In this document: one piece after another, positions 3,750 through 11,454 of the stretch
How positions within the stretch are numbered: position 1 is the stretch's first letter
Layout of the letters: each line of letters opens with the position of its first letter
Virus record (IMG/VR): IMGVR_UViG_3300031576_000062
Location: 1 to 51,757 of that record
DNA from: a virus
Length of the DNA stretch: 51,757 bases
Strand: one strand, 5' to 3'
Position numbers and translations under genes: made by a program
The notes under the pieces: model-generated
Seen by the model: only the letters and a program-made list of their open reading frames with translations
Told to the model about the DNA's origin: nothing
Databases searched by the model: none

Positions 3750-4748
3750 TTGAATCTCACGAACATCTCCTGGTGCGACATGTCTTGGAACCCCGTGCGT
3801 GGGTGTTCGCGCGTGTCGTCCGGTTGCGAGAATTGCTACGCCGAGCGGATCGCGGCGCGGTTCTCTGTTGGCCCCCGTATGGACGGTGGCGAGATCATCC
3901 TGCGCAAATCCGGGCCATCTGGGCCGTTCATCGGATTCGCTCGGATGACGAAGGCTGGCCCCCGCTGGACCGGTAGGGTCGAACTGGTCAAGGAAAAGCT
4001 GGACGAACCATTTCGATTGAAGGCCGGGACCAAAGATGGCCCACTTGATCCAGTTCGGCCGAAACGGATTTTTGTCAACAGTATGTCGGACTTGTTCCAC
4101 GAGGGGCTTTCTGATGGAGACATAGACGAAGTGTTTGCCGTGATGGCGATTGCGCGGAAGCACAACTTTCTCGTATTGACAAAGAGAGCGAATCGGATGC
4201 TGGATTGGTTTCGACGGCAATCCGACGCCTGGAAGCACGGCGAGATTTTGGCAACAGCACAAAATATCAGGGATGGTGCAGTTGTCGAGGATTGGCCGTT
4301 GCCGAACGTCTGGCTTGGGGTGTCGGTCGAGGACCAGAAGACGGCAGATGAACGGATTCCAATTCTGCTCAAAACGCCGGCGGCGATGCGGTTCGTATCC
4401 TATGAGCCGGCACTCGGGCCGGTGGATTTTAACCGGTGGCTTGTCCCGCGCTGTCAGGGTTGCGGCGACTATCGGACACGCCCCGTCGATCTGGCGCTTG
4501 ACTGGGTGATCCTTGGCGGTGAGTCCGGCCCCGGTGCTCGGCCGTGCGACATCGGGTGGATTGGAGCGGCAGTCAAGCAATGCAATGATTTGGTGCCGTG
4601 CTTCGTGAAGCAGTTGGGGGCGCGGCCCTACGAATGTTTGGAGGGCTACGGGCAATGGAAATTCAAGAGCCGTTCAGGTAGTGACCCTTCGGAATGGCCG
4701 GAGGATTTGCGGGTGAGAGAATTCCCAAGGATGAAGCCAGGAGAATGA
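3750..4748 (+). CDS. Phage Gp37/Gp68 family protein (DUF5131)
   Basis: 332 residues. The N-terminal W-C-D-M-S-W-N-P-V-R-G-C ... GCENCYAE and the C-terminal VILGGESGPGARPCD ... VPCFVKQLG are the signatures of the Gp37/Gp68 family, which resembles radical-SAM or Fe-S proteins through its cysteine cluster. The biochemical role of the family is not established; a nucleotide- or nucleic-acid-modifying reaction is often suspected. TTG 3750 is chosen as start because GGAAGGAG precedes it and homology begins at once. The open frame continues upstream through a duplicated gene fragment. It lies upstream of a methyltransferase. Confidence 0.8.
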   Translation: MNLTNISWCDMSWNPVRGCSRVSSGCENCYAERIAARFSVGPRMDGGEIILRKSGPSGPFIGFARMTKAGPRWTGRVELVKEKLDEPFRLKAGTKDGPLDPVRPKRIFVNSMSDLFHEGLSDGDIDEVFAVMAIARKHNFLVLTKRANRMLDWFRRQSDAWKHGEILATAQNIRDGAVVEDWPLPNVWLGVSVEDQKTADERIPILLKTPAAMRFVSYEPALGPVDFNRWLVPRCQGCGDYRTRPVDLALDWVILGGESGPGARPCDIGWIGAAVKQCNDLVPCFVKQLGARPYECLEGYGQWKFKSRSGSDPSEWPEDLRVREFPRMKPGE

Positions 4749-4752
4749 AACC

Positions 4753-4803
4753 ATGATCCATTTTGAGCCGTTGCTGGATACGAAGGGGAAGGTGGGGACT
4801 TGA
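4753..4803 (+). CDS. Possible 16-residue peptide
   Basis: ATG 4753 follows CAGGAG with good spacing and encodes MIHFEPLLDTKGKVGT. It is too short to classify. The only support is the ribosome site and its fit between two genes. Confidence 0.25.
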   Translation: MIHFEPLLDTKGKVGT

Positions 4804-4854
4804 CTGGACTCAATAATAATGGTAATCCTGTTTCCAGAAACGGAGGGATTGTTC

Positions 4855-5019
4855 ATGCTCAAAGCTGGAAAGATCGAAGTCTACCAGAGGGTCGGAGAGT
4901 GGAGGTGGCGGGCTGTCGCCGCCAACGGTCGGATTCTGGCATCAGGGGAGGGCTTCAAAAGGCGGGCGATGCTAGAGAAGTCGTTGGCCGCGCTAAAGAA
5001 AATCCTCCTCGCAACATGA
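4855..5019 (+). CDS. YegP/DUF1508-like small protein
   Basis: 54 residues. The pattern KIEVYQ..GEWRWRAVAANG.ILASGEGF is the beta-strand repeat of the YegP (DUF1508) family, usually found as one or two copies in small proteins of unclear function. ATG 4855 is preceded by GGAGG at 4842-4846, so a longer start at 4819 is less likely. Its TGA overlaps the ATG of the methyltransferase gene, indicating coupling. Confidence 0.65.
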   Translation: MLKAGKIEVYQRVGEWRWRAVAANGRILASGEGFKRRAMLEKSLAALKKILLAT

Positions 5020-6428
5020 AGGAAAAATTGAATGGCGAGCGGCCGATTTCTGATCTTGCCGCCGACCCAAAGAATCCGAGGAAGATAACGGACGACGCCC
5101 TGCTTGGGCTTGGGGCTTCTTTGCGTTCATTTGGGGACCTGTCCGGGCTTGTGTTCAACCGCAAAACTGGACATTTGGTCGCCGGCCACCAGAGGTTGAA
5201 GGCTCTTGTTTCCGCCGGCGCGAAGTCATGGAAAATCGAAGGGGATAGAGGCATCGTGGTTCACCCAAAGACAGGCGAGAAGTTTCCTGTTAGAATCGTG
5301 GAATGGGACGAAGTAACGGAACGGGCCGCGAATCTCACGGCCAATAACCCAGAGATTGCCGGAGAATTCACAGAGGATGCAATTGGACAGATCGAAGAAA
5401 TGGAAGAGAAGTTTCCTGAATTTGAAGACGTGGGGTTGGATGACTTGAAGGGGATTTTGGAGGAAGAAGGATTCGAGGAAATGCCGGAGGGCATCGAAGA
5501 TGATTTAGAAGAAAAAGAAATTCAGGTTCCAGAAATCCCAATATCGAAAAAAGGCGACTTGTGGTTGCTTGGGAAGCATAGAATTCTTTGTGGAGACAGC
5601 ACCAAAGAAAAAGACATTGATAGATTGCTTGACAGCAATACAGCCTGTCTACTCTGTACATCTCCTCCATATTGGACAGGACAAGAATATGATTCAAAGA
5701 GTTCGATTGTCCAGATTCAGGAGTTTATGAACGAGATCGCTCATAACTGGGCCAAAAGATTTTCGAGGAGGATAATAATTCAGACCGGAAACACAAGCGG
5801 AACATTATCTGGAAATTCAAAAGGATGCGAGAAAATTCTGCTTGATGGAATGTGGGTAAAAGCATTCTCATCGCAGAATTGGTTTTTGAGACACAGACGA
5901 TGTTGGGCGAAGGAGCATTTTCGAGGAAGCGTTGCTGGACCGGAGTCTGATTATGTGGATCAAGCTTGGGAAGTAATTTTGACATTCTGGAATCCATCGC
6001 TTCCTTTTGTGGGCCAGGAAAGAATTCCCGAAGATTGGCCTATGGCTGGAATATGGAAAGATATTGGCGGGCATAGAAAAGAAGGCGAAGGATTGATTCG
6101 TCATCCATGCCCTTATCCCACAGTGCTTGCAGTAAGAATCGTTTCCCTTTATTCTAAAAAAGGAGATTTGGTAGTTGATCCATTCATGGGAAGCGGAACC
6201 ACGCTGATCGCATCAGAAAGGACCGGGAGACAATGTTACGGAATGGAATTAGAACCGCGCTATGTTGATGTTGCCATTATGCGATGGCAGGAACTATCTG
6301 GTCAGGAGGCCGTGAATGAAGAAACTCACAGAGCTTTCAGTTCGGCCAGTGCCGGGGGAGACAGTCCATGCGAGCGTCCCGGAACACGACGGAACGTCAA
6401 AGAACGGCACGAGGAACTACACCATTGA
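5016..6428 (+). CDS. ParB-domain/DNA methyltransferase fusion
   Basis: 470 residues from ATG 5016. Residues 1 to about 110 form a ParB/sulfiredoxin-like domain with GHQR at 57-60. An acidic linker follows. From about residue 180 there is a class-beta DNA methyltransferase, with catalytic TSPPYW at 215-220 preceding the SAM-binding DPFMGSGTT at 388-396. TSPPY is typical of N4-cytosine enzymes, though N6-adenine specificity cannot be excluded. Such fusions are common in phages and probably protect phage DNA from host restriction. The TGA of the YegP-like gene overlaps its start. The 3' end overlaps the next gene by 113 bases. Confidence 0.88.
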   Translation: MKEKLNGERPISDLAADPKNPRKITDDALLGLGASLRSFGDLSGLVFNRKTGHLVAGHQRLKALVSAGAKSWKIEGDRGIVVHPKTGEKFPVRIVEWDEVTERAANLTANNPEIAGEFTEDAIGQIEEMEEKFPEFEDVGLDDLKGILEEEGFEEMPEGIEDDLEEKEIQVPEIPISKKGDLWLLGKHRILCGDSTKEKDIDRLLDSNTACLLCTSPPYWTGQEYDSKSSIVQIQEFMNEIAHNWAKRFSRRIIIQTGNTSGTLSGNSKGCEKILLDGMWVKAFSSQNWFLRHRRCWAKEHFRGSVAGPESDYVDQAWEVILTFWNPSLPFVGQERIPEDWPMAGIWKDIGGHRKEGEGLIRHPCPYPTVLAVRIVSLYSKKGDLVVDPFMGSGTTLIASERTGRQCYGMELEPRYVDVAIMRWQELSGQEAVNEETHRAFSSASAGGDSPCERPGTRRNVKERHEELHH

Positions 6429-7062
6429 AACTGTGGCGTATCGCAAAGAACGGGCAATGAGGCTAAAGTTGATTGGTGTAAGCGAGTATCAAATTGCGAA
6501 AGAGCTAAAAATCAGTCAAGGCATGGTCAGGAACTACATTCGAGCCGTGCTGGAAGAATTGCGGCAACAATGGATCAAGAACGCCAAAATGTACGCCGTG
6601 ATGGAATTGGAGAGATTAAACACCATCCAGCGCACTCTTTGGCCGATCTTCCAGAACGAGAGTAACAAATTCACGGTAACGCAGAGGCTTGGGGCCGTAG
6701 ATAGGATCATCCGTTGCATCGAACTTCGCGCTGAATTGAATGGATTGAAAACTTGCGGGATCGGGTTCGGAGAGTCGGTTGAACCAGTATTTTCTCCAGA
6801 CAATCTCAGGAAGGCATTAAAAGACGATGTCACGATCCGCGAAGCCGTCGGATACGACGCCGCCCTCGGGCGAATCACCGCCGTTAGAGAAATCAGTATT
6901 GACGCCGGCAGGGTACGCCCTCAGGACAAGCAAGGGGTTGTGGAAGTCAGCCCGGCACCTGGAATTCATAAATTACTACCTGATGCAGGCCCTAGCAAGG
7001 AAGGTCAAAAGATTGATGATATTCGTCCCACCGAGGAACGGAAAAACGATGCTGGTCAGTAG
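6316..7062 (+). CDS. terS: Putative terminase small subunit (HTH protein)
   Basis: 248 residues. A helix-turn-helix lies near residues 55-75 (VSEYQIAKELKISQGMVRNY), followed by helical oligomerisation-like segments. Position directly before the large subunit and the HTH fit a DNA-recognising small terminase, though sequence alone does not prove it. CAGGAGG at 6302-6308 supports ATG 6316, inside the methyltransferase gene. The last 236 bases overlap the large-subunit reading frame, an unusually long overlap, so one of the two ends may be mis-called. The low-complexity C-terminus is the doubtful part. Confidence 0.6.
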   Translation: MKKLTELSVRPVPGETVHASVPEHDGTSKNGTRNYTIETVAYRKERAMRLKLIGVSEYQIAKELKISQGMVRNYIRAVLEELRQQWIKNAKMYAVMELERLNTIQRTLWPIFQNESNKFTVTQRLGAVDRIIRCIELRAELNGLKTCGIGFGESVEPVFSPDNLRKALKDDVTIREAVGYDAALGRITAVREISIDAGRVRPQDKQGVVEVSPAPGIHKLLPDAGPSKEGQKIDDIRPTEERKNDAGQ

Positions 7063-9232
7063 GTACTTCCCTTGCACTTGGTTGGGCTACTATCCCAACG
7101 AACGAGTCTTGCTTGCGACCTACGAAGCAAAGTTTGCGGCTGACCTCGGCAAGAGGGCGCGGGACGTGTTTATTGCAACAGGCAAAGAACTGTTCGGGCT
7201 TGAAGTAAGAAAGGACACGAAAGCCGCTACACATTGGTCCATCCAGGGGCATGAAGGCGGGATGCAAACAGCCGGGGCAGGAGGCCCGATCACGGGAAAA
7301 GGAGCAGATTGTGTCGCTGAGGGGACTGTGGTTCAAACGAACAAAGGCAGTATCCACATTGAGGACTTGCAATCGCTACCCGTTCCCGTTAAGATTATGT
7401 GCTATGGAGAACACGGAATCGAATTCAAAGCCATACAGGCTATCCGAAGAATTGAGGGCCGCAGGTTACTCAGGATTACCACTACCAGCGGAAGAAGTCT
7501 TGATGTTACGCCGGACCATCAAGTCTATTCAAACGGGAAATACGTCGAGGCGAATGTTCTTTCCGCCGGCGATCCTCTTTTGCTCGCTGTGCAAAAAAAG
7601 ACATATTGTTCCAGCATACGCACTATTCAAAAGGCAAAAACTCGGATGTGTGGACAATTATTGTTCTGTCGAATGTTCGAGGATTCATCATTCGACAAAA
7701 AACCGGCGACAGTGCAGAGTTTGCAGATTGCCAGTCAAGAAGAAAACCAGGGGATATTGCGAGTCATGCAGACCAAAGGCCAAGGGAAGAACGCCAATAT
7801 ATCCTGCAAAAGAAACCGTCTGTCCAATCTGCAACAACATTTTTATGGCTCGATGGAAGGGCAAATCTCCAGGAAAACATGCAATTTATTGCAACAGGTT
7901 CTGTGCCCGGAGAGCACATTCGAGAAGGATGGCAGGGATTGGGAATCCGAGGTGGAAGCATGGGGCAACCCCACTCCGAAAACAACCACATTCAGCGAAG
8001 GCATTTCGACTGATGCGGCCAATCGTTTTGGAGAGAGACAGAAAAAGGTGCGTGGTGTGCAATTCACAGAAAAATCCTCACGTTCATCACATCGATGGAT
8101 GGCCGATGAACAACGCATCAGAGAACCTGGTTACATTATGTTCCAAGTGCCATCGCACTCTCCATGCAGCGCAGGATTCAAAGCCGTCAAGGATTCTGTG
8201 GCCATGGTTAAAAGAGTACGCCAAACGTCCGTTGTGTACGACATCCAAGTTGAGGAAAATAGAAACTTCTTTGCGAACGGGATTCTGGTCCACAACTGCC
8301 TAATCCTGGATGATCTTGTCAAGAATGCAGAAGAAGCGAACTCTTACACCCAACGGGAACACATGTGGGAATGGTTGGAGTCGGTTGCAATGACGCGTCT
8401 TGAACCTAAAGGGGTGGTGGTGATAATTACAACTCGATGGAACCGAGACGACGTTTGCGGGCGACTCCTTGACCGCCAACCGGCGGACTGGACCGTGATT
8501 TCACTCCCTGCGATTGCGGAAGAAAATGACATCCTTGGAAGGAAACCAGGAGAGGCATTGTGGCCTGAAAGATGGCCCATCGAAGAACTCGAACTTATAA
8601 AAAGGAAGATTTCAAGATACTGGTGGTCCGCGCTGTACCAGCAACATCCGATGCCGCGTACGGGGATACTTTTCAGCATGGACAACATCCAAAAATGGAA
8701 AATCGAAACGTTTCCAACAGACATCCATTACTGCCGAGGATGGGACTTGGCTTCGTCCGAAAAACAGGTCAACAAATCCGATCCCGACTACACAGCCGGC
8801 ACGCTTGCTGGAATTGATACACGCCCAGAAGTCCCGATCCTGTACGTCAAGGATGTTGTGCGTGGACAATGGGGAGCGCCTGAACGGGATGCGATGATTA
8901 AGCGGACGGCGATGAAGGATGGTCCTGCGGTCAGAGTCTTTGTTGAGAAAGTTGGAGCCTATAAAGAAGCCGCTGAAAGGGTCCAAAAGCTTCTGGCTGG
9001 GATAGCTATCGTTGAGACAATTTCTCCGACGAAAGACAAAGTGACGCGGGCCGATTTCCTCACGCCGTGTTTCAGCGCCGGCAACGTCGTGATCGCAGAA
9101 GACGATTGGAACGAGCAATGGATCAATGAATTCACGGAATTCCCGGAGGGCGTCCATGATGACCAGGTAGACAGCTTGGCCCTCTGTACCCATGAATACG
9201 ATGTCTTTTCGGAATTCGGCTTTTCGATCTGA
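6827..9232 (+). CDS. terL: Terminase large subunit precursor with intein
   Basis: 801-residue precursor. Extein residues 1-161 include the family's N-terminal segment (LTPAGYAL) and Walker A PPRNGKT at 68-74. An intein occupies 162-490. The extein resumes at Cys491 with the Walker B motif LILDDLVK, followed by TTRWNRDD and the RuvC-like nuclease domain (GWDLASS, an acidic residue in VFVEKVG, and HDDQVDSLAL at the end). Splicing would give a 472-residue terminase that cuts and pumps DNA into the prohead. The start is uncertain: ATG 6827 lies within the small-subunit gene, and TTG 6899 is an alternative just before the conserved region. Confidence 0.93.
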   Translation: MSRSAKPSDTTPPSGESPPLEKSVLTPAGYALRTSKGLWKSARHLEFINYYLMQALARKVKRLMIFVPPRNGKTMLVSRYFPCTWLGYYPNERVLLATYEAKFAADLGKRARDVFIATGKELFGLEVRKDTKAATHWSIQGHEGGMQTAGAGGPITGKGADCVAEGTVVQTNKGSIHIEDLQSLPVPVKIMCYGEHGIEFKAIQAIRRIEGRRLLRITTTSGRSLDVTPDHQVYSNGKYVEANVLSAGDPLLLAVQKKTYCSSIRTIQKAKTRMCGQLLFCRMFEDSSFDKKPATVQSLQIASQEENQGILRVMQTKGQGKNANISCKRNRLSNLQQHFYGSMEGQISRKTCNLLQQVLCPESTFEKDGRDWESEVEAWGNPTPKTTTFSEGISTDAANRFGERQKKVRGVQFTEKSSRSSHRWMADEQRIREPGYIMFQVPSHSPCSAGFKAVKDSVAMVKRVRQTSVVYDIQVEENRNFFANGILVHNCLILDDLVKNAEEANSYTQREHMWEWLESVAMTRLEPKGVVVIITTRWNRDDVCGRLLDRQPADWTVISLPAIAEENDILGRKPGEALWPERWPIEELELIKRKISRYWWSALYQQHPMPRTGILFSMDNIQKWKIETFPTDIHYCRGWDLASSEKQVNKSDPDYTAGTLAGIDTRPEVPILYVKDVVRGQWGAPERDAMIKRTAMKDGPAVRVFVEKVGAYKEAAERVQKLLAGIAIVETISPTKDKVTRADFLTPCFSAGNVVIAEDDWNEQWINEFTEFPEGVHDDQVDSLALCTHEYDVFSEFGFSI
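7310..8296 (+). mobile_element. Intein in terminase large subunit (329 residues)
   Basis: The intein begins with Cys (block A, CVAEGTVVQTNKG). Block B is GRSLDVTPDHQVYS, block F is VVYDIQVEENRNFF, and it ends with HN before a +1 Cys, as in class 1 inteins. The insertion point is immediately before the Walker B strand, a classic conserved site for selfish elements. About 97 N-terminal and about 25-30 C-terminal residues look like splicing domain. The roughly 200 residues between them, read in the terminase frame, resemble no endonuclease. The HNH endonuclease is in the +1 frame instead. Confidence 0.9.
7554..8303 (+). CDS. HNH endonuclease nested out of frame inside the intein
   Basis: 249 residues read in the +1 frame relative to terL. 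There are four Cys-rich zinc-binding clusters (C10/C13 with C37/C41; C54/C57 with C69/C72; C90/C93 with C113/C117; C166/C169 with C196/C199). An HNH nuclease core at 166-204 (CVVC...HVHHIDG...ENL...CSKCH) has H179, N191 and H200 as the likely metal/catalytic set. ATG 7554 has GAGG four bases upstream; ATG 7404 and 7503 are alternatives. The stop falls five bases beyond the intein's 3' boundary. It is probably the homing endonuclease of the intein, translated separately or by frameshift, or a relic displaced by two compensating indels. Confidence 0.75.
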   Translation: MFFPPAILFCSLCKKRHIVPAYALFKRQKLGCVDNYCSVECSRIHHSTKNRRQCRVCRLPVKKKTRGYCESCRPKAKGRTPIYPAKETVCPICNNIFMARWKGKSPGKHAIYCNRFCARRAHSRRMAGIGNPRWKHGATPLRKQPHSAKAFRLMRPIVLERDRKRCVVCNSQKNPHVHHIDGWPMNNASENLVTLCSKCHRTLHAAQDSKPSRILWPWLKEYAKRPLCTTSKLRKIETSLRTGFWSTTA

Positions 9233-9268
9233 CTTGACTAAATCGCTATTTATTGGTTTCATTCCATC

Positions 9269-11197
9269 GTGGGACTCATAAAGCTCGCTCGGGCCGCTCT
9301 TGGACGCGCCGCCTCCTCGGTTGGCCTCTCCAAGACCCACGATGCTGATTTTACCGACCTCTCTTTTGGGGGTTGGGAAATTCTTCTCGGGCCTGGTCGA
9401 AGGCGGGCCGATGATGTTTTCCAGGGAATGACGGTCCAGGGGCTTGAAAATGCTTACCGCGTCCATTCCGTCGTCTATGCTTGCATCCACAGAATCGTAA
9501 CGGCTTCCTGGGAAGCTCCGGTACAGGTTGGTTTTGAATCAAAAAGCGGGAACTTCACGGAAGCCGAGAACCATCCCCTTTCAGACCTTTTTTCGAGGCC
9601 GAACAATTTCCAGAGCTACGCCGAATTCTTGGGCAATCTCGAAATCTTCCTTCTCACAACCGGGGAAGCCATCGCCTTTAAACTCAGGGACAGGCAGGGA
9701 ATCATTCGGCAACTTCTACCCATCCCTTCAAGCCACGTCTCGCCAAGATTCGACGGAGAAAATGGAGAGATCACGGATTATAGATTGAGGGTCAGCAAGA
9801 GGAAAACTATCGATGTTCCACCAAGAGACATATTCCGTGTGTATTACCCCGACCCGACGCATATTCACGAACCCCTTGCGCCGATGCAGGCGGCGGCACG
9901 AGATTACGCGGTGGACAGGGAGCGCGAAAGTTTCATGGCAGAAATGCTGGTTCATGCCCACATTCCCGGATTGACGATCCACACGGACAGGGCCATGACC
10001 GAGGAGCAGAAAGATTTGGTTCGGAAAACCTTGACCTCTTCAATCGGGCGCGGAATGAGGGGTCGTCCGCTTTTTGTCCACGGTCAAAACACAAAGGTTG
10101 AAGTGAATCAGCCGTTGAAAGACCTGGATTGGCCGGGGTTGACGGGATTGATGGAGTCGAGGATTTGCAGCACCTTTGGAGTCCCGCCACAAGTGATCCA
10201 CCTGAGAATTGGTTTGGAGCATGGCGCTTTCTGCCTCCCGGCAAATTCCAGAATTCGGACCGAAAAAGGCCTGCGCCGAATTCATTCAATTGTTCCAGGG
10301 AAAGATCGGGTCTGGACATACAAAGATGGAGACATCCATCTTGCCGATGTAAAAGTGGCTGGAAAGACGGGTCGGAAACTGCTCTATGAATTGCATACAA
10401 AATACAAGACGATCAGGGCTTCCGCAAACCACCCTTTTCTCGCCAGAAAAGCAAGCAACTCCAGATCTCTGAATCAGTCTCAGTCCTTTGGATTGACTTG
10501 GGTTCCCCTAGAGGATTTGTCGCCTGGGGATAAGGTTGTAGTCTGCGACAAACCTCTCGGGAAATTGAAGAAGCTGCCAAAGAAAAACTGGACGAATCAA
10601 CGCCGGCTTTCTCAAAATTTGATTCTATGCACGATTCTTGACATCGTTCCAATCTGCGAAGAAGATGTTTACGATATCGAAGTTGAAGAAACGCATAATT
10701 TCATCGCAGAGGGATTCGTCGTCCACAATTCTAATTACGAGCAGGCAGAAAGGACTTTCTATCGAGGGACGATGGTTCCCATGTGGAAGATCATGGAGAC
10801 GGCCTTCACGAGGTCGCTTATCCAGGACGAACAGCGCGAGGATCAGGATTTGATTATCCGCCATGACCTTTCGGAATGCCGACCTTTGAAGGAAGATGTT
10901 GTTGCGGCAGCTGATCGTGCCACGCGTCTTTTCGATGCGGGGATCATCAATAGAAACGAAGCTCGTAGAATTATTGGAGAGGAGCCGATGGAAGGCGGAA
11001 AGGGCGAAGTCTTGGTGAACCCAAACTCGCAGGCAAGGAGAAATCCGACCCAACCCTCATTTGGAATCCCGAATGAATCCCCATCGAGGGAGGAAGCCGG
11101 TAGGCGTAGGCCAACAGATGATCGTTCCATTGACAACGGTAAGGTCGCGCTGGACTTGACTCGCCACCTTAACCGTGGTATTTCTTCTGGAGAATAA
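9269..11197 (+). CDS. Portal protein precursor with mini-intein
   Basis: 642-residue precursor of an HK97-type portal. It has the N-terminal VHSVVYACIHRIVTASWEAP and a central LPIPSSHVSPR. The conserved GLEHGAF|SNYEQAERTFYRG block is where the intein inserts, and the C-terminal segment is Pro/Arg-rich. The portal is the dodecameric ring at the capsid vertex through which terminase pumps DNA. A GTG start at 9269 is used; no strong ribosome site is visible and TTGACT lies 30 bases upstream. Removing the intein leaves 476 residues, a normal size. Confidence 0.92.
   Translation: MGLIKLARAALGRAASSVGLSKTHDADFTDLSFGGWEILLGPGRRRADDVFQGMTVQGLENAYRVHSVVYACIHRIVTASWEAPVQVGFESKSGNFTEAENHPLSDLFSRPNNFQSYAEFLGNLEIFLLTTGEAIAFKLRDRQGIIRQLLPIPSSHVSPRFDGENGEITDYRLRVSKRKTIDVPPRDIFRVYYPDPTHIHEPLAPMQAAARDYAVDRERESFMAEMLVHAHIPGLTIHTDRAMTEEQKDLVRKTLTSSIGRGMRGRPLFVHGQNTKVEVNQPLKDLDWPGLTGLMESRICSTFGVPPQVIHLRIGLEHGAFCLPANSRIRTEKGLRRIHSIVPGKDRVWTYKDGDIHLADVKVAGKTGRKLLYELHTKYKTIRASANHPFLARKASNSRSLNQSQSFGLTWVPLEDLSPGDKVVVCDKPLGKLKKLPKKNWTNQRRLSQNLILCTILDIVPICEEDVYDIEVEETHNFIAEGFVVHNSNYEQAERTFYRGTMVPMWKIMETAFTRSLIQDEQREDQDLIIRHDLSECRPLKEDVVAAADRATRLFDAGIINRNEARRIIGEEPMEGGKGEVLVNPNSQARRNPTQPSFGIPNESPSREEAGRRRPTDDRSIDNGKVALDLTRHLNRGISSGE
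10232..10729 (+). mobile_element. Mini-intein in portal protein (166 residues)
   Basis: Starts at Cys322 of the precursor (CLPANSRIRTEKG), has block B ASANHPF, block F VYDIEVEETHNFIAEGF and terminal HN, with Ser as the +1 residue. There is no room for a homing endonuclease, so it is a mini-intein that would splice but could not home by itself. Confidence 0.92.
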
Positions 11198-11199
11198 TC

Positions 11200-11454
11200 A
11201 TGGTCCCAAAGGAAGCCGTCGTCGAAATCGTCTCGACAGGAGCCGCTCAGGCCCTACCAGACCTCAAGTGCGCCAGGGCCTTCCTTCATGCCGAGGATGG
11301 CAATTCTAATGATATCTTGTTTGGAGACATTGACGGACAGAACTGGCGGCTGGAACCTGGTGACAACAGCAGGGAGATTGCGGCGAACAATCTTAAGCAG
11401 ATTTATGTCAAGGGGACATCTGGGAATACCCTGATTGTCCATTACGACGTGTAG
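11200..11454 (+). CDS. Small probable virion protein
   Basis: 84 residues, beta-rich (GDIDGQNWRLEPGDNSREI...KQIYVKGTSGN), placed two bases after the portal gene. Similar small beta proteins in this position are often decoration or head-fibre base proteins, but no family is recognised. Confidence 0.6.
   Translation: MVPKEAVVEIVSTGAAQALPDLKCARAFLHAEDGNSNDILFGDIDGQNWRLEPGDNSREIAANNLKQIYVKGTSGNTLIVHYDV

Follow-up and report, generated by a model that had tools for sequence, protein, structure and literature searches.

A terminase intein with an HNH endonuclease gene nested out of frame, and the recurrence of this layout in related phages

The terL intein and the gene nested within it

The stretch of DNA analyzed here (the window, comprising all 51,757 bases of IMG/VR virus record IMGVR_UViG_3300031576_000062) carries a gene for the terminase large subunit (TerL) whose reading frame, uninterrupted by stops between 6827 and 9232, contains an intein, while across the same DNA, in the +1 frame relative to TerL, runs a gene for a zinc-finger HNH endonuclease (Table 1). 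This double-coded layout is real and selected and is not a sequencing error, because over 50 distantly related phages have retained it. As judged from sequence and predicted structure, the element is very probably a mobile TerL intein whose homing endonuclease is encoded by an independent, nested +1 gene, so that an HNH protein and a splicing intein would be made separately.

The first-pass annotation had recognized intein blocks A, B, F and G in the TerL frame, some 200 residues between them that resemble nothing, and a zinc-finger HNH endonuclease in the +1 frame, and all three observations are borne out. The intein begins with Cys1 (7310-7312) and ends with Asn329 (8294-8296), preceded by a penultimate His and followed by Cys+1 (8297-8299). 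The complete set of class 1 splicing residues is thus present (C1, T67, H70, H328 and N329, together with Cys+1), the five within the intein being invariant or almost so in 63 relatives. In the AlphaFold2 model (40 sequences), intein residues 1-98 and 291-329 are confidently predicted (block means 84-98), and residues 101-290 have block-mean predicted local distance difference test (pLDDT) values of only 36-77, in keeping with a middle of about 190 residues that is without a Pfam family and predicted to be disordered. A Foldseek search with this model returned 43 PDB matches at E<=0.001, in keeping with a Hint fold; the best is the Mtu recA intein, and intein splicing domains are represented by 2imz, with a template modeling (TM) value, by target, of 0.82. 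All 63 frame-0 inteins match Intein_splicing, and in the same Pfam search none of them contains an endonuclease family.

The +1 open reading frame (ORF) matches phrog_1271, an HNH endonuclease family, at 7e-23 and the PF01844 HNH family at 2.8e-4, the latter being exactly the family cut-off. The protein has several zinc-binding Cys pairs and, as expected of an HNH endonuclease, the zinc Cys and the HH..N..H residues are invariant in a 55-member HNH alignment; the window protein keeps its zinc residues and the catalytic H228, H229, N241, H250 and H254 (numbering of the 299-residue product). Among the +1 products, 42/55 match HNH and 39/55 match HNH_3. Most of the zinc and HNH parts of the AlphaFold2 model have pLDDT values above 90. 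With the whole HNH model Foldseek gave no significant match (best E 0.05) and nothing beyond local matches to HNH, and a profile search with the protein matches HNH proteins (IscB, IcmJ/DotN). The stop codon (TAA, 8301-8303) sits inside the downstream extein, seven bases beyond the last intein base, and a stop past the intein boundary, within extein sequence, is likewise found in 35 of 56 loci. The intein itself is inserted four codons upstream of the Asp-Asp of TerL Walker B, with Walker B in the downstream extein. A search for a sigma-70 promoter ahead of the HNH gene gave no upstream site on the + strand, the count of sites being near chance.

Table 1. Features of the terL locus, in window coordinates.
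Feature	Coordinates	Strand	Basis
TerL (terminase large subunit) with intein, 801 amino acids (aa)	6827..9232	+	PHROG terL families to 7.5e-88; Pfam Terminase_6N/6C
Intein, 329 aa, frame 0	7310..8296	+	PF14890 Intein_splicing, 2e-15
HintN, N-terminal splicing half, blocks A and B; TxxH at 7508-7519	7310..7603	+	hidden Markov model (HMM) match; AlphaFold2 pLDDT ~95, residues 1-98
Stretch coding two conserved proteins, HintN (frame 0) and HNH N-terminus (+1)	7404..7603	+	conservation in both frames
HNH endonuclease gene of 299 codons and a stop, +1 frame; ATG 7404 proposed as start	7404..8303	+	55-member alignment; upstream conservation; AlphaFold2 mean pLDDT 81
A7 run, proposed slippage site, neither conserved nor needed	7593..7599	+	homopolymer check in 56 loci
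Frame-0 intein middle, stop-free unconserved filler	7604..8176	+	predicted mostly disordered; identity mostly equal to null; no Pfam endonuclease
HNH catalytic domain	8049..8168	+	PF01844, residues 216-255 of the 299-aa product
HintC, C-terminal splicing half, blocks F and G, ending in VHN	8177..8296	+	HMM match; AlphaFold2 pLDDT ~94-98
Asp-Asp of TerL Walker B, adjoining the insertion site	8309..8314	+	D495 and D496 invariant (8-sequence TerL alignment)

Beside terL, the portal protein gene (9269-11197) contains a second intein, an endonuclease-free mini-intein at ~10232-10729 (~166 aa, +1 residue Ser). An ORF at 4800-6428 looks by eye like a DNA methyltransferase with a ParB-like N-terminus ahead of it. 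A group I intron was also considered for the locus and was rejected, since no Rfam match to a group I or group II intron was found over 6700-11300.

Recurrence of the layout in relatives

The relatives found at the outset (L002, Gordonia phage Clown gp5 (L003), Synechococcus phage S-EIVl (L004), and then L006, L007, L009 and L010) carry the HNH at +1 of TerL in every case. In a wider set, assembled from scans with HNH subgroups and with the intein C-terminal (HintC) block alone, the identical +1 layout is present in 56 non-redundant TerL inteins (<80% HNH identity), including those of the isolated phages Clown and S-EIVl, whose records annotate the terminase only and leave the nested HNH unannotated. 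The 80 HintC-seeded matches comprise 56 full-length inteins with a +1 HNH, 16 mini-inteins, 5 matches cut by a contig end, and the single loci L107, L102 and L121; in none of the 80 is an HNH in frame with the splicing domain. In L107 one indel shifts both frames at a single spot, as two true frames would give. L102 lies on the same contig as L025, the second intein of that gene having been picked. L121 contains an in-frame LAGLIDADG_2 endonuclease, in an ORF without a match to TerL profiles, and its detection indicates that the method is able to see in-frame enzymes. A nested gene would be called into question by homologs whose +1 frame is riddled with stops; the full-length relatives instead keep the +1 HNH and an open frame 0, the exceptions at this TerL site being the single-indel L107 and the fractured L038 described below. 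An out-of-frame HNH is the rule and not the exception in this TerL intein family, in which the layout is old and general.

The same layout was found by a HintC scan of genome contigs in prophage-like TerL genes of Streptomyces glaucescens, Fictibacillus arsenicus, Anaerolineaceae and Armatimonadetes records, as well as in a prophage-like Rhodococcus aetherivorans record (L205:2160-4400), where the +1 HNH intein occupies another TerL site, downstream of Walker B. The 66 non-TerL inteins recovered in that scan, many of them cyanobacterial, contain no such HNH; an earlier scan of genome contigs (A4) gave no match, and the free-standing HNH loci (L011, L012, L029-L031 and L040-L053) contain no intein.

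Reduced and rearranged forms accompany the full-length ones. The 16 mini-inteins, which lack the middle, are scattered over the Hint tree, in line with recurrent HNH loss (parsimony counts 15 changes, of which at least 4 fall on well-supported branches), and 9 of the 16 have a +1 HNH match. At L038:2-1700, TerL-N/IntN, a free HNH ORF and IntC/TerL-C are three separate ORFs; the HNH is intact and the frames other than its own are stop-filled, with 12 stops in frame 0 from 480 to 1014, and the locus has the appearance of a fractured gene whose intein is split. In L025 the TerL gene holds a further intein (4686-5642) with an HNH of a different type, HNH_3 (PF13392, 3.7e-13), at +2; this is an independent instance, so that an out-of-frame endonuclease has arisen more than once. 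Two inteins per TerL gene also occur in L039, L118, L139 and L033; the first intein of L139 matches LAGLIDADG_3, and those of L039 and L118 are LAGLIDADG-like by eye.

Selection on two frames and the start of the HNH gene

The extent to which frame 0 is open was compared with a null in which the HNH amino acids were fixed, the synonymous codons shuffled and the stops counted in the other frames. For window positions 7595-8194 the expectation under this null is 9.4 frame-0 stops, and the window has none (0/4000 shuffles); across 59 non-redundant loci (56 informative) about 500 stops are expected and 0 observed. In the third frame, by comparison, 549 stops were counted against 498 expected in the larger locus set, and 70 against 63 in the first eight loci, so that the earlier caveat of a rather open third frame in the window is resolved by the relatives, and the selection that had been deduced from the open frame 0 is upheld. 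Among full-length loci there are only three exceptions to an open frame 0, namely L107 (indel), L038 (fractured) and L156 (677-1570, a record titled Gracilibacteria). In the last of these, reading TGA as Gly (code 25) leaves 0 stops in frame 0 and an open HNH region, and still 42 stops in the third frame.

What is conserved in the middle region is the product of the +1 frame. Between the window and L002, nucleotide identity there amounts to 0.58 at HNH codon positions 1 and 2 and to 0.30 at position 3, and for most pairs the frame-0 identity of the middle does not exceed the null, with some excess frame-0 similarity in the L004-L010 pair (z 3.7). On account of this codon-position pattern and the null-level frame-0 identity, the HNH is taken as the conserved protein of the middle, where frame 0 does no more than stay open. 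Selection acts on both frames.

The HNH-frame similarity extends upstream into the HintN region, where identity is about twice the null in pairs that include the window (z 4.4-6.3; for window-L072, 0.40 versus a null of 0.17, z 6.3) and where a conserved motif like LSxxxRxxGYxxSPLPxxEWLxLRxxIxS...KRLxxPPVI is found. The start originally assigned, ATG 7554, is therefore very probably too late, and on the evidence of this upstream conservation the gene probably begins at ATG 7404, giving the 299-residue product, with part of HintN lying in DNA that codes for two conserved proteins. An HNH-frame ATG or GTG with a Shine-Dalgarno (SD) motif of at least 4 nt is found in 41/56 loci versus 14/56 for the control frame, and with one of at least 5 nt in 20 of the 56 versus 3, an enrichment that supports internal initiation.

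Interpretation, alternatives and known systems

In the proposed mechanism, frame 0 would be translated through TerL-N, HintN, a meaningless but stop-free linker of ~190 residues, HintC and TerL-C, whereupon the two Hint halves, given the complete splicing residues and the predicted fold, would fold together, excise the intein and restore the packaging ATPase. From the same mRNA, an internal ribosome start (probably ATG 7404) would yield the free zinc-finger HNH protein. As suggested by its family, the conservation of the site and the patchy spread of the element, this protein may cut intein-free terL alleles near the Walker B codons, and repair of the cut terL would then copy the whole element. 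The conserved site, the repeated loss of the HNH and the greater likeness of inteins than of their hosts (window and L072 share 60% identity in the HNH and 51% in Hint, compared with 34% in TerL) are indirect signs of such a homing life cycle. Mantel tests of the Hint, HNH and TerL distances give correlations of 0.34, 0.37 and 0.22, modest values that do not separate co-inheritance from transfer.

The first-pass annotation had left three readings of the locus open, and the recurrence of a +1 HNH with an open frame 0 in relatives upholds the first of them, a nested independent gene. The second, in which programmed frameshifting or polymerase slippage on the A7 run fuses TerL-N to the HNH, draws on the position of that run just ahead of the zinc fingers and is very unlikely. 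Conservation of the +1 frame is already seen ahead of the run, and a homopolymer of at least 7 occurs in the region of only 7/56 loci, all of them A7 and at varying positions, so that slippage is not needed; moreover, A-AAA-AAG is a -1 slippery heptamer whereas the HNH requires +1, and SD motifs are enriched at starts in the HNH frame. In the third reading, an endonuclease once in frame was shifted out of it, in this genome alone, by two compensating indels that were either real or errors of sequencing. Despite the fact that out-of-frame homing endonuclease genes (HEGs) are unusual among inteins generally, the probability of this is practically nil: the same +1 relation recurs in 56 non-redundant loci of independent records, the GenBank phages Clown and S-EIVl included, which rules out compensating indels or assembly error and refutes that reading for the family, and the single indel of L107 breaks both frames at one spot.

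That HNH-less mini-inteins are common would fit an HNH that is a dead passenger in a splicing-only relic, but this is unlikely for the window, in which the catalytic and zinc residues are intact and the ORF is open, with third codon positions near random and positions 1 and 2 kept. Retention of the insert as a TerL loop without splicing, by analogy with a related out-of-frame HNH in the ShiLan insert, in which no splicing motif was found (PMC11855218), is highly improbable here, where every splicing residue and the Hint fold are present and where a retained insert of 329 residues beside the ATPase Walker B would be expected to be damaging. The chance is slighter still that the frame-0 middle is a functional domain and the HNH a later overprint. 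In its favor, all relatives free of splits and indels have an open frame 0 (L156 when read with code 25), and the L004-L010 pair shows its excess similarity; nevertheless, most other pairs have a frame-0 identity at the null level, the middle matches no family, its model is mostly of low confidence, it is absent from mini-inteins, and in the fractured L038 it is filled with stops beside an intact HNH.

Several points weigh against the preferred reading of a nested, independently translated endonuclease. The window's own SD motif at ATG 7404 is weak (TAAG, ~10 nt upstream). The surveyed loci had to carry HintN and HintC in one ORF, and the absence of frame-0 stops is in part a result of this selection of loci. 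The searches were seeded with HNH-bearing members and describe this intein family rather than all TerL inteins, and trees built from Hint alone are poorly resolved.

Compared with classical inteins, which have an in-frame LAGLIDADG or HNH endonuclease, the window element shares the splicing residues, the Hint fold, the insertion at a conserved motif and the mini-inteins formed by endonuclease loss; the difference is that the classical endonuclease lies within the spliced polypeptide, whereas here it is a separate overlapping gene. In this respect the element resembles the HEGs of group I introns, which are separately translated genes within a self-splicing element, except that splicing here is at the protein level, and no stop may consequently arise in the host frame along the overlap. 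For split inteins of the gp41-1 type, fractured genes with a free-standing endonuclease gene in between were reportedly described by Dassa and colleagues in 2009, an arrangement that is matched by the three ORFs of L038; the intein of the window is contiguous instead, and L038 suggests how one of the two forms could give rise to the other.

Closer precedents exist. In brucellaphages, a putative intein-encoded HNH gene out of frame in terL was reported in one sentence (Virol J 2015, PMC4422536), and the window likewise has an intein-encoded HNH ORF overlapping mid-terL in another frame, although the two are likened by description only and that report is without frame, selection or splicing analysis. 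The ShiLan domain of mycobacteriophage DNA methylases consists of out-of-frame HNH inserts (Genes 2025, PMC11855218) that resemble the present element in holding a zinc-finger HNH within an insert through which the host gene stays open, and differ in having no splicing motifs and an HNH in the 'third frame', starting 18 bp into the insert; the ShiLan HNH has 35% similarity to that of Clown over 40% of the Clown HNH. In view of these two reports the window element is a further case of a kind that is known but has received little description. New here, as it seems, are the finding that a broad TerL intein family normally has its endonuclease out of frame, the measured selection, the two-frame coding of HintN, the corrected start, and the mini and fractured derivatives. 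A 2025 preprint on actinophage inteins is said to describe a 'non-canonical architecture' and may overlap with these findings.

A wider view, which is regarded as possible rather than probable, is that these elements represent an old and widespread class of phage inteins with splicing protein and endonuclease in overlapping frames. The first ~65 residues of the endonuclease would share codons with HintN and the remainder would force a random, stop-free linker upon the intein, a burden whose relief would lead to mini-inteins or, as at L038, to a split intein beside a free endonuclease gene; if true, this offers a concrete route toward natural split inteins. Inteins are taught as a single polypeptide performing both splicing and homing. 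With the two jobs placed on two overlapping genes in this TerL family, the annotation of such inteins changes, and the family provides abundant natural material on overlapping genes, a natural case of ~190 residues of unconstrained polypeptide tolerated within a splicing domain, and a testable path linking ordinary inteins, mini-inteins and split inteins. If the brucellaphage and actinophage reports concern the same family, what has been a scattered curiosity would become a general phage element.
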